Origin: Hahella sp.
Lineage (GTDB): Bacteria; Pseudomonadota; Gammaproteobacteria; Pseudomonadales; Oleiphilaceae
DNA: 64,000 nt
Assembly (NCBI GenBank): GCA_028280065.1
Contig: JANQMN010000132.1
Location: 48,983-112,982, forward strand
Reading direction: 5' to 3'
Positions 36,069 through 44,035 of the stretch are shown one piece after another. The position numbers and the translations under genes were made by a program. Under the pieces are notes generated by a model, which was not told the origin of the DNA, did no database searches, and saw only the letters and a program-made list of their open reading frames with translations. The number at the start of each line of letters is the position of its first letter. The first letter of the stretch is position 1.

Positions 36069-38162
36069 TCAGATGGCCTGCTCCGCAAATGTCCTGCTGC
36101 TTGAAGTCGCTTGTACCAGCGGTACCTTGATAGTGAAGCAGGTGCCCACCCCGAGTTCGCTGGTCACATCCAGCGATCCGCCGATTTTACGGATGTACTC
36201 CCGGCTTTGATAAGCGCCAATGCCCATACCGGTGAGACCTTTGGTACTCGAAAAAGGTTTAAACAGTTCTTCTTTGATGAACGTGTCGCTCATACCGGAG
36301 CCGGTGTCCTGGATAAATATGACCGCCCATCCCGTGCTGACTTTAATCGAGATGCTGACTTCTCCTTCCTTGGCGGTTGCATCCTGGGCATTGTGTACCA
36401 GGTGCACGAGCACGCTCTGGAGCTTTTCCCGGTCAGCCACGATGCGTACTTTTCTGTCATCGCCGATGAAATTCGGCACCGGACTTCTCTTTGATTCTTG
36501 CTCGACCACAGCCTTAACCAACTCCGTTAAATCGAATTGGCTGATATCGTCCTTGGAGACAGGGTTACGTATCTGTTGTAACAGATGATTCATTTTGTCC
36601 AACGCATGCTCCGTGGTTCGAATCATATCGTCGACAAATACCGGATTGGTTTTGTGTTTTTCCGAGTTATTCACTAACAAGGAAAGCTGCGCAATAATGG
36701 TCTTTAGATCGTGCACCATAAAGGCGGATGTACGATTGACTGCCTCGAATTGTTTGGACTCGGATAGTCTGGCTTGGGTATTTAACAGCGCTAAATAACT
36801 TGCCGCTTGACGGGCGACGGTTTTTAGTAAGTCGTAGTTTTCCCAATTCAATTCGATTTTGGTCATGGGTTCGGCGATTAATGCGAAGCCGATCATTTCT
36901 TCGCCGACAAAGAAAGGCACCAATAGCCAGGGTTTCTGGACTGACCAGATGCAATCAGGAATCTCGACCAATTGATAGCGAGTCGGATCGTTCTGATATT
37001 CTTTCAAGTCGACAACCCAGTCGCTGCGACTCATCAGTTCGATGAGTTCGGCATGCAAGTCAATTTTGTCGAACTTTATTTCGGGCATGTTCCAGAAAGC
37101 CGTGGCTTGGTAAGCTTCGTCTTCATTTTTTAGCCATAAAGCACCGGAGCGGCTTTCGACCAACTGCGACATTACCCGAATCGCCCGAACTTCCAATCGT
37201 TCGGCGGATTCATCTGCGGTAAGTAAACCGGTGGCTTTCAGCCACTCTTCACGGTAGTCGTATTTGTAGTCGAAAAAGTGTCTGCTGATAAACACCATCA
37301 TCCTGGCGCGGAGTCTTGACGATCCGCCAATCAACAGCAGGAAGAGGGTTGCGCCAAAGAAGAATATGATGAGAAAAGCTTCTGACCAGTCGCCGCCGAC
37401 CGCATTAATATAATAGCCTCCTGCAGCCATGATAAGCAGGTACAGCCCTGCAAACACCAGAACACTGGTGTGGAAGATGAACTGGCGGGAAATCTGCACA
37501 TCTATGGGCTGTTTGCGGGCATTCACCATGGTAAGCGCAACCAGAGGCGCGCAAATCACATAAATGACTCCCCTGGCGTCCCAAAAAGCCTGAGAGATTT
37601 GATTAAACAGCAGGGCGTCTGAATAAAGCACAAAGTCATAAATAAACATTGTTCCCAGCGACAGGCACAGGTAGCGGGTGTTTTTGCGCTTATACCCCAT
37701 AGCATTGCGCCAGACCTGTTCCAGTAGAACCAATCCTCCCAAGGGCACCAGGATCTGGCCGATTAACAACCCCTGACCGGATATCAACGGCGCATCGGTA
37801 AACGCCCGGCTGCCGCCGGCGAGCAACATGCTGGCTAAAATCAGGCTAATCGCCAGCACCACAGATTTTTGCACAAAGTTGTCAGTGCTAAACAACCCTT
37901 TGTTAATTCCCCAAAGGATGAGAAGCATGCCGATCCAACCTGCGCTTCTGAGCACTTCGAACGAGTAACGCACCGCAAATGGGGGAGTATCGAAGGCCTC
38001 CTGACAGGCCACGATGCCAAGCCAGATGGAAGTGACCAAACAGGCGCCGAACAGCGCGCGGTCGGCAAGTCGCCGCCAATAGCCTTTGGCTAACAGAACG
38101 ACTAAAAGAAAATAAACCAGTGCGCCGGTAGCATGACTAATAGCGCCAAATGTAATATTCAT
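36069..38162 (-). CDS. prsK: XrtA/PEP-CTERM system membrane histidine kinase PrsK
   Basis: 697 aa. The N-terminal ~290 residues hold about eight hydrophobic segments (for example ALVYFLLVVLLAKGY, GLYLLIMAAGGYYI and AFLIIFFFGATLFLLLIGG). A GAF-like region follows (~310-470), then the kinase: H-box AFMVHDLKTIIAQLSLL, N-box SVLVHLVHNAQDATA, G1 IQDTGSGMSD, F-box KPFSSTKGLTGMGIGAYQ. Everything needed for activity is intact. PrsK proteins are found with PrsR in bacteria that sort PEP-CTERM proteins through exosortase XrtA. The signal sensed is unknown. No exosortase gene is in the window, but glycosyltransferases at 0-3.5 kb may belong to the regulon. Confidence 0.93.
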   Translation of the reverse strand: MNITFGAISHATGALVYFLLVVLLAKGYWRRLADRALFGACLVTSIWLGIVACQEAFDTPPFAVRYSFEVLRSAGWIGMLLILWGINKGLFSTDNFVQKSVVLAISLILASMLLAGGSRAFTDAPLISGQGLLIGQILVPLGGLVLLEQVWRNAMGYKRKNTRYLCLSLGTMFIYDFVLYSDALLFNQISQAFWDARGVIYVICAPLVALTMVNARKQPIDVQISRQFIFHTSVLVFAGLYLLIMAAGGYYINAVGGDWSEAFLIIFFFGATLFLLLIGGSSRLRARMMVFISRHFFDYKYDYREEWLKATGLLTADESAERLEVRAIRVMSQLVESRSGALWLKNEDEAYQATAFWNMPEIKFDKIDLHAELIELMSRSDWVVDLKEYQNDPTRYQLVEIPDCIWSVQKPWLLVPFFVGEEMIGFALIAEPMTKIELNWENYDLLKTVARQAASYLALLNTQARLSESKQFEAVNRTSAFMVHDLKTIIAQLSLLVNNSEKHKTNPVFVDDMIRTTEHALDKMNHLLQQIRNPVSKDDISQFDLTELVKAVVEQESKRSPVPNFIGDDRKVRIVADREKLQSVLVHLVHNAQDATAKEGEVSISIKVSTGWAVIFIQDTGSGMSDTFIKEELFKPFSSTKGLTGMGIGAYQSREYIRKIGGSLDVTSELGVGTCFTIKVPLVQATSSSRTFAEQAI

Positions 38163-38621: not shown

Positions 38622-38894
38622 CTAGTAGTAGCATAGTACAAAGCCGGCGTCAGTAAATCCTGTATGGTTAAAAAGTAATCTTTTAGGGGTTGCTCGCCAG
38701 GCATCCTGATAACCTACCCAATCTTTGGCGGCATTGGTGACGGCCGGGATGGTTTCCTCACAGCCGACGACGCTGCCCAAGTTAAATCCCCAGGGATCAT
38801 AGCCCAGGCTCCCTACAGGCTTGTCAATGGCGCTAATCTTTTTGTCGAGATGGCTGGAGACCAGCAGGTTTTTCAGCTTTGCACGTATACTCAC
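38622..38894 (-). pseudogene. Possible lysophospholipid acyltransferase remnant (N-terminal)
   Basis: 90 codons from a GTG. Residues ~20-45 (ISAIDKPVGSLGYDPWGFNL) resemble the N-terminal lead-in of bacterial 1-acylglycerol-3-phosphate acyltransferase-like proteins, where a (D/E)KP...GxDPxGF stretch precedes the HX4D domain. The catalytic HX4D never appears; the frame loses any similarity and stops. It reads as a truncated, decayed gene. Confidence 0.4.
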
Positions 38895-39362: not shown

Positions 39363-40382
39363 TCAGACGACGCTATCCTTTGCGTTTAGTTGCCCCTTCC
39401 AGCTTTGTCTCGCAACCTGTTCTTTGGCAACCTCCAAAATGTCAGTCACCAATCCTATGAGTTGGTGATCGAAATCCAAAAAAGAGCCATTAGAATGGTC
39501 GTCGAAACGATGAATCGCGGATTTCCATGCCGCTAGATCCTCCGGCATCTGCGCGTCTTCCAACAAATTGGCAATTGCATCCACGACGATATCGGCAACG
39601 GTATCTTCCATATGTTCCGCTAACTGGGAGCCGACGATGGGAATTGTTTGAATCCGCTTCAAGTCGGCATTGGTTTGCAGCGCAAATCCTACGCTGTGCC
39701 GCAGTTTATTGGCTAATACATTATCCTGGTCTTCGCGCATGCTGGCAGCCAGATTCGTGATCATTTGCTCCCATGACGTCGCCAGACCCGGTAATCGCGG
39801 TTCAACAATCCTGGCCAGGATTTTTTCGCCAAGCTGGGTGTCCTGCTGTAAATCTTCCTGTATGCCGGTAATCACCTTGACCACAACTCTGTCACTGAGT
39901 TCCTCCAGGAACACGTTGTAATAGAAGCTGATGAAACTGAATACCCGGGTATTGGTAAAATCGATGATGCCATATTTATGTAGCCGGTAGATGATAGAAA
40001 AAATTCGCAGGAATCGAAGTAATCTGGTGGAGCCAAGGGGAATGCAGCCCAGTAGGTCATACCAGTGCAGGAATGGGAAAAAGTACCAGCGTTCATAGAT
40101 TTTTTCTTTAACGGCAAAATACCAGCGGACCACAAACTCGGTTAAAAAAATGGCGATGAATCCAAGGTCGATGAGGAGAAAGTTGGCATGGAAAAACTGC
40201 ATTTCGTCATAGATGCCCGGGGTATAGTCCCGCACCAGTGAGGCAACGAGGTCGGTTGCAAACAAAGCATCGATAATGATTAGCGTGAGGTTGATAATCA
40301 ATAGGCCGAGCATCATCAAGTCCACGGCAATCCAGACGCCCTGTCTGCTATCCTTGAGGTGTTGATAATCGATTTTCAGCAA
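39363..40382 (-). CDS. Voltage-sensor-like membrane protein without a pore domain
   Basis: 339 aa. Four membrane segments fill residues ~15-140: S1 (VWIAVDLMMLGLLIINLTLI), S2 (LLIDLGFIAIFLTEFVVRWY, with the acidic Glu), S3 (WYDLLGCIPLG, with Asp) and an S4-like RLLRFLRIFSIIYRLHK with Arg at every third position. This is the charge layout of voltage-sensor domains. No selectivity filter or S5-S6 follows. Instead a ~200-residue soluble helical region appears (VITGIQEDLQQDTQLGEKIL and beyond). Could be a proton channel, a sensor, or a non-channel relative. Divergent from the phasin gene. Confidence 0.65.
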   Translation of the reverse strand: MLKIDYQHLKDSRQGVWIAVDLMMLGLLIINLTLIIIDALFATDLVASLVRDYTPGIYDEMQFFHANFLLIDLGFIAIFLTEFVVRWYFAVKEKIYERWYFFPFLHWYDLLGCIPLGSTRLLRFLRIFSIIYRLHKYGIIDFTNTRVFSFISFYYNVFLEELSDRVVVKVITGIQEDLQQDTQLGEKILARIVEPRLPGLATSWEQMITNLAASMREDQDNVLANKLRHSVGFALQTNADLKRIQTIPIVGSQLAEHMEDTVADIVVDAIANLLEDAQMPEDLAAWKSAIHRFDDHSNGSFLDFDHQLIGLVTDILEVAKEQVARQSWKGQLNAKDSVV

Positions 40383-40456
40383 ATGTACGTCCTTACATAA
40401 TGAATGTCCCGTTCACAGCATAGTGGAGGGCTACTCAGAATACGATATGCCGTGCT

Positions 40457-42535: not shown

Positions 42536-44035
42536 TTAACCGGACGTTCGCTTGGCGGTTGAGGGAAAATTCTGTATTTTCGGCTTCTCATAGAAGTGCA
42601 CGATGTTACCATCGACGAACTTGTCAAAAAACCGGCTTTCGTCGGCAATGAGGGAATAATAGGGTTTTTCCCCTGCAGTTATCGGCTGCCGGTTTAGTAC
42701 CTTAATGGCATTGAAATTATTGCCTATCTTGGAGAATTTGGCTTTCAACTCGCAAGTGACGATTTGCTCCTGCTCAATCGCATTGAATTGCGCCACTTTT
42801 AACCGTTTTTCCAATAGATTTTCCTCCTTGATGTTCTCAACGCTATGCAGATGTCGTAGCCGTTTCCGATGGACCATCATGGCGGAGTAGGTATTCGGAT
42901 ACTGGCGGGCAATGATACGAAACTGTTCCCAAAAATAGTTATCGGTAAGATATTGAAATTCTTCTATATTGGTTAAACTGGATTCCAGGTAACTGTGAAC
43001 GCTGGGCTGTTGCAAAACTTCTTCGATTGCTTTGCGAAGCAGCCAGTCAAAGCCAATGGAAGTCTTGTGTCCATACACTTTACGGTACATCTGGTGGCGC
43101 GAGTAGACAAAATCCTCCAGAGCACCTAACGCTTTATGAGTTATGGCCAACCCCATCCAATTGGCCTCGCTATCCCAACCGACGTGCAAGTTTTTCAGTA
43201 GATGGTCGAGATTGAAGCCGCCTATTGTAACGGATGAATGAAAGCCGTCGCGGAGCATGTAATCCGCTCTATCCGCGTCTATTTCCCCGGAAATGATGAG
43301 TTTTAGTAGGTTTTTTACGTGTTCGTGGGCGTTTTCAGGTGCTTTTTCAGTATCGGTCAACAATGGCCATAAGGCTTGCACATGGAGTTTGAACCGAGTG
43401 CTCACCAGACCGGTTGTCGTTTCCATCAGTGCCATGACATCTTGGGCCTGAATGCCTCCCAGTTGACAAATGTTCCAATCCAGAATGGTAGATGCGCAAC
43501 GCACTGAATAGTGTTCGTGTTCCAGGCAGATCGGCTCATGGTGGTAAAGAGAATCATGGGGGGAATCTCGCCAAAGCGCCCGGAACATACCGGGCGTTGC
43601 TAAAAGATCGGCGATTGTGGGAACTTTGGCAAACTGATGGGAGAAACTGCTGTGACCGCAGTCATGGAGCAGACAAGCCAGACGAACCAGCTTATTAAAG
43701 TAGTTGATGGCCTCCAGTTGCTTTGCGGTAATTCTGAAATCCACTTGAGTGGCGGCTTCAGAGTTTTTGCCGGAGCGGCGCAGGCAGTTCTCAATCAGGC
43801 CGCGGTAAATTCGATGACCCACATGCAGCGTTCCGATACTGTGCAGAAAACGCGAATGGGTCGCGCCGGGGAAAACCAAGGAAAGAATATCATTCTGACA
43901 AATGTTACGCAGACGCTGGAATAAGGGGTGGTCGATGACCAGGACCTCATGACGATAAAGGGAGATTCCGCCATGAACGGGGTCCATGATAAGCCGGTTA
44001 CCGACACCCAAAAGTTCATTGATTGCTTGGTGCAT
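42536..44035 (-). CDS. HD-domain phosphohydrolase (dGTPase-like superfamily)
   Basis: 499 aa. The metal-binding HD motifs are H in THSRFLHSIGTLHVGHRIYR, HD in LACLLHDCGHSSFSHQFA and D in DADRADYMLRDGF. It opens with LIMDPVHGGISLYRHEVLVI, LFQRLRNICQNDI, typical of deoxynucleotide triphosphohydrolase-like HD proteins of the SAMHD1/YdhJ type. The substrate may be dNTPs or another phosphoester. No signal, cytoplasmic. Ends ~46 bp before xthA on the same strand, so the pair may be co-transcribed. Confidence 0.88.
   Translation of the reverse strand: MHQAINELLGVGNRLIMDPVHGGISLYRHEVLVIDHPLFQRLRNICQNDILSLVFPGATHSRFLHSIGTLHVGHRIYRGLIENCLRRSGKNSEAATQVDFRITAKQLEAINYFNKLVRLACLLHDCGHSSFSHQFAKVPTIADLLATPGMFRALWRDSPHDSLYHHEPICLEHEHYSVRCASTILDWNICQLGGIQAQDVMALMETTTGLVSTRFKLHVQALWPLLTDTEKAPENAHEHVKNLLKLIISGEIDADRADYMLRDGFHSSVTIGGFNLDHLLKNLHVGWDSEANWMGLAITHKALGALEDFVYSRHQMYRKVYGHKTSIGFDWLLRKAIEEVLQQPSVHSYLESSLTNIEEFQYLTDNYFWEQFRIIARQYPNTYSAMMVHRKRLRHLHSVENIKEENLLEKRLKVAQFNAIEQEQIVTCELKAKFSKIGNNFNAIKVLNRQPITAGEKPYYSLIADESRFFDKFVDGNIVHFYEKPKIQNFPSTAKRTSG

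Follow-up and report, generated by a model that had tools for sequence, protein, structure and literature searches.

Prokaryotic voltage-sensor domains (VSDs) are, by the account of a 2023 review that drew on database searches, in every case joined to a K+, Na+ or Ca2+ pore, and no Hv-type protein was found in bacteria (PMC10377628). A gene on the reverse strand of the 64,000-nucleotide stretch of Hahella sp. DNA analysed here (the window) raises the question of whether bacteria also possess voltage sensors that come without a pore. The gene (39363–40382) encodes a 339-aa protein in which the original prediction had recognised a four-helix, sensor-like region carrying an S2 Glu, an S3 Asp and an S4 with Arg at every third position, followed by no S5-P-S6; it had offered a proton channel or a voltage-linked regulator as possible functions.

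The open reading frame is a real gene, present in one copy per genome and with relatives in many families of Gammaproteobacteria. It occurs once in its own 6.7-Mb genome (contig G000:C116), and 33 of 58 relatives carry a single orthologue each, mostly full-length and 36–60% identical, with the two most divergent at 31%. Family matches were found in 68 of 295 genomes across the order and, scattered, in 10 of 369 across the class (with its own genome counted and one match being a short fragment), and a draw of 399 genomes from the phylum gave 20 hits, every one of them inside the class Gammaproteobacteria. Searching plasmid records yielded further orthologues in Halomonas and Acinetobacter baumannii. 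Translation probably begins at a TTG codon. This TTG and a ribosome-binding region containing AAGGA about 8 nt 5' of it (40383–40400, reverse strand) are common to the same-genus orthologues L002–L005, where the upstream sequence is AAGGAGCG, and this conservation argues that the start is probably right. An A. baumannii orthologue (L149, 5752–6798), which lies directly upstream of minCDE, is annotated 'preprotein translocase subunit SecA'; judged by its sequence, which resembles a pore-less VSD, the label is a misannotation, and the public annotation of that record is corrected here.

As a single sequence, the focal protein matched nothing useful in Pfam, NCBIfam or the PDB, and an imelysin-like match (E 0.06) was set aside as helical noise. 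We describe the protein through an alignment of 79 non-redundant homologues (<90% pairwise identity, median identity 34%), in which eleven positions are invariant, R123 and R126 among them. The four membrane segments, all on the reverse strand, were placed by conservation together with the helices of an AlphaFold model described below. S1 (residues 15–42; 40257–40340), for which Nav S1 sequences were also consulted, contains D21 (78/79), N31 and D38 (77/79), and the N-x6-acid spacing of the latter two recurs in Nav channels of related genomes. S2 (residues 68–93; 40104–40181) contains D72, the charge-transfer aromatic F79, E82, R86 (Arg in 64/79) and W87, and S3 (residues 99–116; 40035–40088) contains P103, H106-W107-Y108-D109, G112 and P115, of which P103, W107, Y108 and P115 are invariant. 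The predicted S2 and S3 charge pattern is borne out by the motifs F79-x-x-E82-x-x-x-R86 and W107-Y-D109: position 82 is acidic in all 79 homologues (Glu in 66, Asp in 13), as is position 109 (Asp in 70, Glu in 9), while the aromatic position three residues before E82 is Phe in 59, Tyr in 10, Leu in 9 and Trp in one. S4 (residues 117–136; 39975–40034), which was also aligned to Kv S4 by hhalign, bears R120, R123 and R126, retained in 78, 79 and 79 of the 79 homologues, so that the S4 arginines are conserved as a voltage sensor would have them. The every-third-position spacing holds for these three residues but not beyond them, where S129, R133 and K136 follow, and a set of only three regularly spaced gating arginines counts against the voltage-sensor reading.

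Comparison of profiles relates this region to known channels. A family profile built from the pore-less proteins alone detected second loci in six genomes (G335, G328, G755, G709, G987 and G1006), matching across S2–S4 with E between 3e-5 and 7e-4 per genome, and the two of these loci that were read, L042 in G335 and L043 in G328, are true TVGYGD potassium channels. Alignment of the family with these two K+ channels by hhalign scored 67.6 through S2–S4 (probability 96%; E 3.3e-9, an E-value from a single-pair comparison that weighs less than the controls), and alignment with 30 Nav channels scored 43.5. In those controls, 20 column-shuffled profiles reached at most 19.9 against the K+ and 27.1 against the Nav channels, and reversed profiles reached 17.9 and 19.5. 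Sub-cut-off matches to Pfam Ion_trans were obtained for 24 of the 79 members (best E 1.2e-4), and a sequence-profile search of the PDB with the deep VSD alignment matched nothing. To judge by the conserved arginines and the profile match to bacterial K+ channels, the resemblance to a voltage sensor is beyond chance, and S1–S4 is almost certainly a VSD homologous to known voltage sensors. Bacterial six-transmembrane (6TM) K+ channels are the likely evolutionary source of the family. In a separate observation, a distant relative of 261 aa (P0002; L168, 6209–6994, reverse strand) has S1–S4-like segments and a helical-looking tail without a pore. Used as a query, it retrieves numerous genuine K+ channels as well as the pore-less family, and because it matches both groups the series leading from channels to the pore-less sensor appears continuous; P0002 looks like another, shorter kind of bacterial VSD protein lacking a pore, one that connects the family with K+ channels.

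With a pTM of 0.45, the full-length AlphaFold2 (AF2) model was not well enough defined for a fold search, and the VSD alone (the first 182 residues) was modelled with the 79 sequences, giving a pLDDT of 89.4 and a pTM of 0.72. The helices comprise S1 (4–42), two short outer helices, S2 (68–93), a kinked S3 (101–111, as short helices at 101–105 and 107–111), S4 (117–136) and a long helix at 146–180. Foldseek against the PDB gave a best E of 0.78 and TM of at most 0.42, so that no individual match is significant; by our own count 27 of the 40 matches are voltage-gated channels, including all of the top 14 (CavAb, TPC1, NavAb, KCNQ and the KvAP VSD among them), none of them individually significant. 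Our reading of the model is that of a VSD whose S3 is unusual. On the choice that the original prediction had left to structure prediction, between a VSD and an unrelated helical bundle, the model sides with the former in its confidence and in the kind of structures it resembles, but not through any match significant alone.

The predicted absence of S5-P-S6 holds across the family. After residue 145 the mean hydropathy stays at or below 0.6, whereas the S5 and S6 segments of Nav channels encoded in the same genomes reach about 2.3; neither a transmembrane segment nor a selectivity-filter motif was found after S4 in the 79 homologues. A PF00520 search of the genome matched other genes and left the focal gene unmatched. 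What follows S4 instead is the long helix (residues 146–180; 39843–39947, reverse strand) with the motif E160-E161-x-S163-D164-R165, in which E160 is invariant and E161, S163, D164 and R165 are each conserved in at least 96% of the 79 homologues; we propose it as a coupling helix. Beyond it lies a C-terminal region (residues 181–339; 39366–39842, reverse strand) that conservation, hydropathy and a low-confidence helical model suggest is mostly helical and soluble. P248 and G251 are invariant in this tail and W328 is present in 77 of 79 homologues, and because protein length in the family is nearly constant (327–371 aa) the tail is integral to the protein. It matched no family in Pfam or NCBIfam. 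Neither database gave a phosphatase match for the focal protein, and Pfam gave none for 27 full-length homologues. In one genome (G810), only the C-terminal region was found, encoded by an ORF of its own that lacks the VSD (L172, 2851–3408, reverse strand).

What is established is that the gene exists, that its S1–S4 is homologous to VSDs and shows their residue pattern, that no pore follows and that the full-length architecture is conserved. Our preferred explanation, to which we assign a probability of roughly 55%, is that the protein is a pore-less VSD protein whose S4 would move with voltage and reposition the cytoplasmic helical tail by way of the post-S4 helix. A change in membrane potential would carry R120, R123 and R126 past a charge-transfer centre formed by F79, E82 and D109 of S2 and S3; the displaced S4 would tug on the conserved helix that comes next, in the region of E160–R165, and thereby change where the mostly helical cytoplasmic tail sits or how active it is, with the tail as the presumed output. 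Both the voltage-driven movement of S4 and the role of the tail as effector are what we infer from this arrangement. As predicted, the architecture of VSD, no pore and helical tail fits that of a voltage-linked regulator with a soluble C-terminal region, but no effector-domain match or conserved partner that would tie the tail to a known output was found.

Conservation bears directly on a rather unlikely alternative, in which the VSD would be a vestige of a K+ channel that serves merely as a membrane anchor, senses no voltage and keeps its S4 arginines for folding or lipid contacts, while the tail acts independently. Domains that derive from VSDs but have little or no voltage sensitivity are known, as in eukaryotic CNG channels, and one homologue persists in G810 as the C-terminal-only ORF. 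S2–S4, however, is the best-conserved part of the protein, with a mean entropy of 0.8–1.7 bits against 2.2–3.1 bits in the tail, and the residues kept are exactly those of charge transfer.

The proton channel offered by the original prediction is disfavoured by two residues, and we regard it as improbable. Such a channel would be Hv1-like, with the VSD conducting H+ while S4 is in the up position and the tail serving in dimerisation or regulation, and the shared plan of four transmembrane segments, an S4 with three arginines and then a polar residue, and a cytoplasmic helical tail is in keeping with it. Position 31 is presumably that of the Nav Asn and of Asp112 in Hv1, a placement that, like those relative to Shaker and NavAb, follows from the general features of these families and from the published text on the Hv motif (PMC10377628). 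It is Asn in 70 of the 79 homologues, the focal protein included, Ser in two and Asp in seven, and these seven, which are in the proton channel's favour, form a Moraxellaceae branch (L100–L106) from which the Acinetobacter-like L099 and L149 differ in having no Asp at this position. In S4, the family motif RxLRxxR is close to the RxWRxxR of Hv proteins (PMC10377628), but the Trp is replaced by Leu (72) or Phe (7) at position 122 in all 79. With both the S1 acid and the S4 Trp of Hv1 missing, a proton channel is unlikely; Ci-VSP has the same two absences, and no proton-selective current was measured there (PMC10377628). Nor did any Hv1 structure appear among the 40 Foldseek matches to the PDB.

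The genomic neighbourhood was compared across 44 loci, and no partner recurs universally; neighbours change by lineage. In the window, a phasin gene (PF05597; 40490–40894, forward strand) is divergent from the focal gene, as is also the case in L054 and L059, and within this genus the association with phasin is probably a coincidence. In these two loci, the family gene is followed by a gene for a C92 papain-like enzyme (Peptidase_C92) and an acyltransferase gene. At the focal locus the C92 gene was not found and the acyltransferase gene (PF01553-type) is a remnant (38625–38894, reverse strand) of the one that is intact in L054 and L059 between the C92 gene and prsK, so that the cluster has apparently degenerated here. 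Further along, 36069–38162 (reverse strand) gives a strong match to PrsK, a histidine kinase of the XrtA/PEP-CTERM exosortase system, and the next gene is also kept in the same order in L054 and L059; on the other side, 42536–44035 (reverse strand) encodes a 499-aa HD-domain protein with weak matches to Pfam HD (below cut-off) and dGTPase models. In Marinobacter-like genomes, and likewise in a second family (f279), the gene directly following the family gene encodes an amidase. In Moraxellaceae, minC and minD come directly after the family gene at all eight loci, a minE-sized ORF follows at seven, and an acyltransferase gene is upstream at seven.

Because the neighbours differ in this way (phasin; Peptidase_C92 and acyltransferase; amidase; minCD), we rejected a function based on operon membership. 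A voltage sensor within a min cluster is nevertheless suggestive, since membrane binding by Bacillus subtilis MinD needs membrane potential (PMC10913488), although a link of the family gene to the cluster through membrane potential is only suggestive. From the minCD and acyltransferase neighbours in this one lineage, we tentatively propose the cell envelope or division as the process controlled. The neighbourhoods also speak to whether the protein could be an accessory subunit that senses voltage and regulates a pore or transporter encoded by another gene. The genome does encode separate Ion_trans channels, and a VSD needs an output; yet no channel or transporter was seen as a recurrent neighbour across the 44 loci, the recurrent neighbours examined being an acyltransferase, an amidase, the C92 enzyme and minCD, and we consider an accessory role quite improbable. 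A non-VSD four-helix bundle resembling a sensor by chance, to which the weak Foldseek scores and atypical S3 might point, is ruled out for practical purposes by the profile homology to Kv channels measured against shuffled and reversed controls, the invariant arginines with their counter-charges and the S1 motif spacing.

The family is, at the level of sequence, a clear exception to the rule that prokaryotic VSDs come with a pore. No report of pore-less bacterial VSDs or of this gene was found in the open-licence literature, a body that excludes most subscription papers and bioRxiv and so leaves priority unproven. It is conceivable, although we hold it to be doubtful, that Gammaproteobacteria contain a widespread and undescribed class of pore-less voltage sensors in which a new helical output region turns the membrane potential into a signal in the cytoplasm and which, within the min cluster of Moraxellaceae, tie control of envelope or division to potential. 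The family is in any case a candidate for the reading by bacteria of their own membrane potential without an ion current.

Pore-less VSD proteins are already known in eukaryotes, namely Hv1, VSP and TMEM266. Bacterial 6TM K+ channels (Kv/Kch, TVGYGD; for example L042 and L043) share with the family described here a homologous S2–S4, including W-x-D-L-L-x-C-I-P and the S4 R-x-x-R, and a short S3–S4 loop, but continue into S5-P-S6 where the family has about 200 mostly helical non-membrane residues. BacNav channels such as NavAb share the S1 N-x6-acid pattern and, to judge by the model, a VSD-like fold, with a weaker profile match, and differ in having a pore domain. Hv1/VSOP is alike in its pore-less VSD, three S4 arginines and cytoplasmic helical tail, whereas the bacterial protein has Asn31 in place of the S1 Asp, no S4 Trp and a tail that runs to about 200 aa, where Hv1 has a short coiled coil. 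TMEM266 (C15orf27), to which PMC13095418 refers, is an animal VSD-only sensor with a cytoplasmic tail, and at that level resembles the bacterial family. Ci-VSP and TPTE likewise combine a pore-less VSD with a cytoplasmic domain, and the Hv1 filter acid and Trp are absent from the bacterial family as from Ci-VSP, but in place of a PTEN-like phosphatase the family has a tail that matched no Pfam or NCBIfam family. The bacterial proteins would offer a second origin of pore-less VSDs for comparison with Hv1 and VSP.
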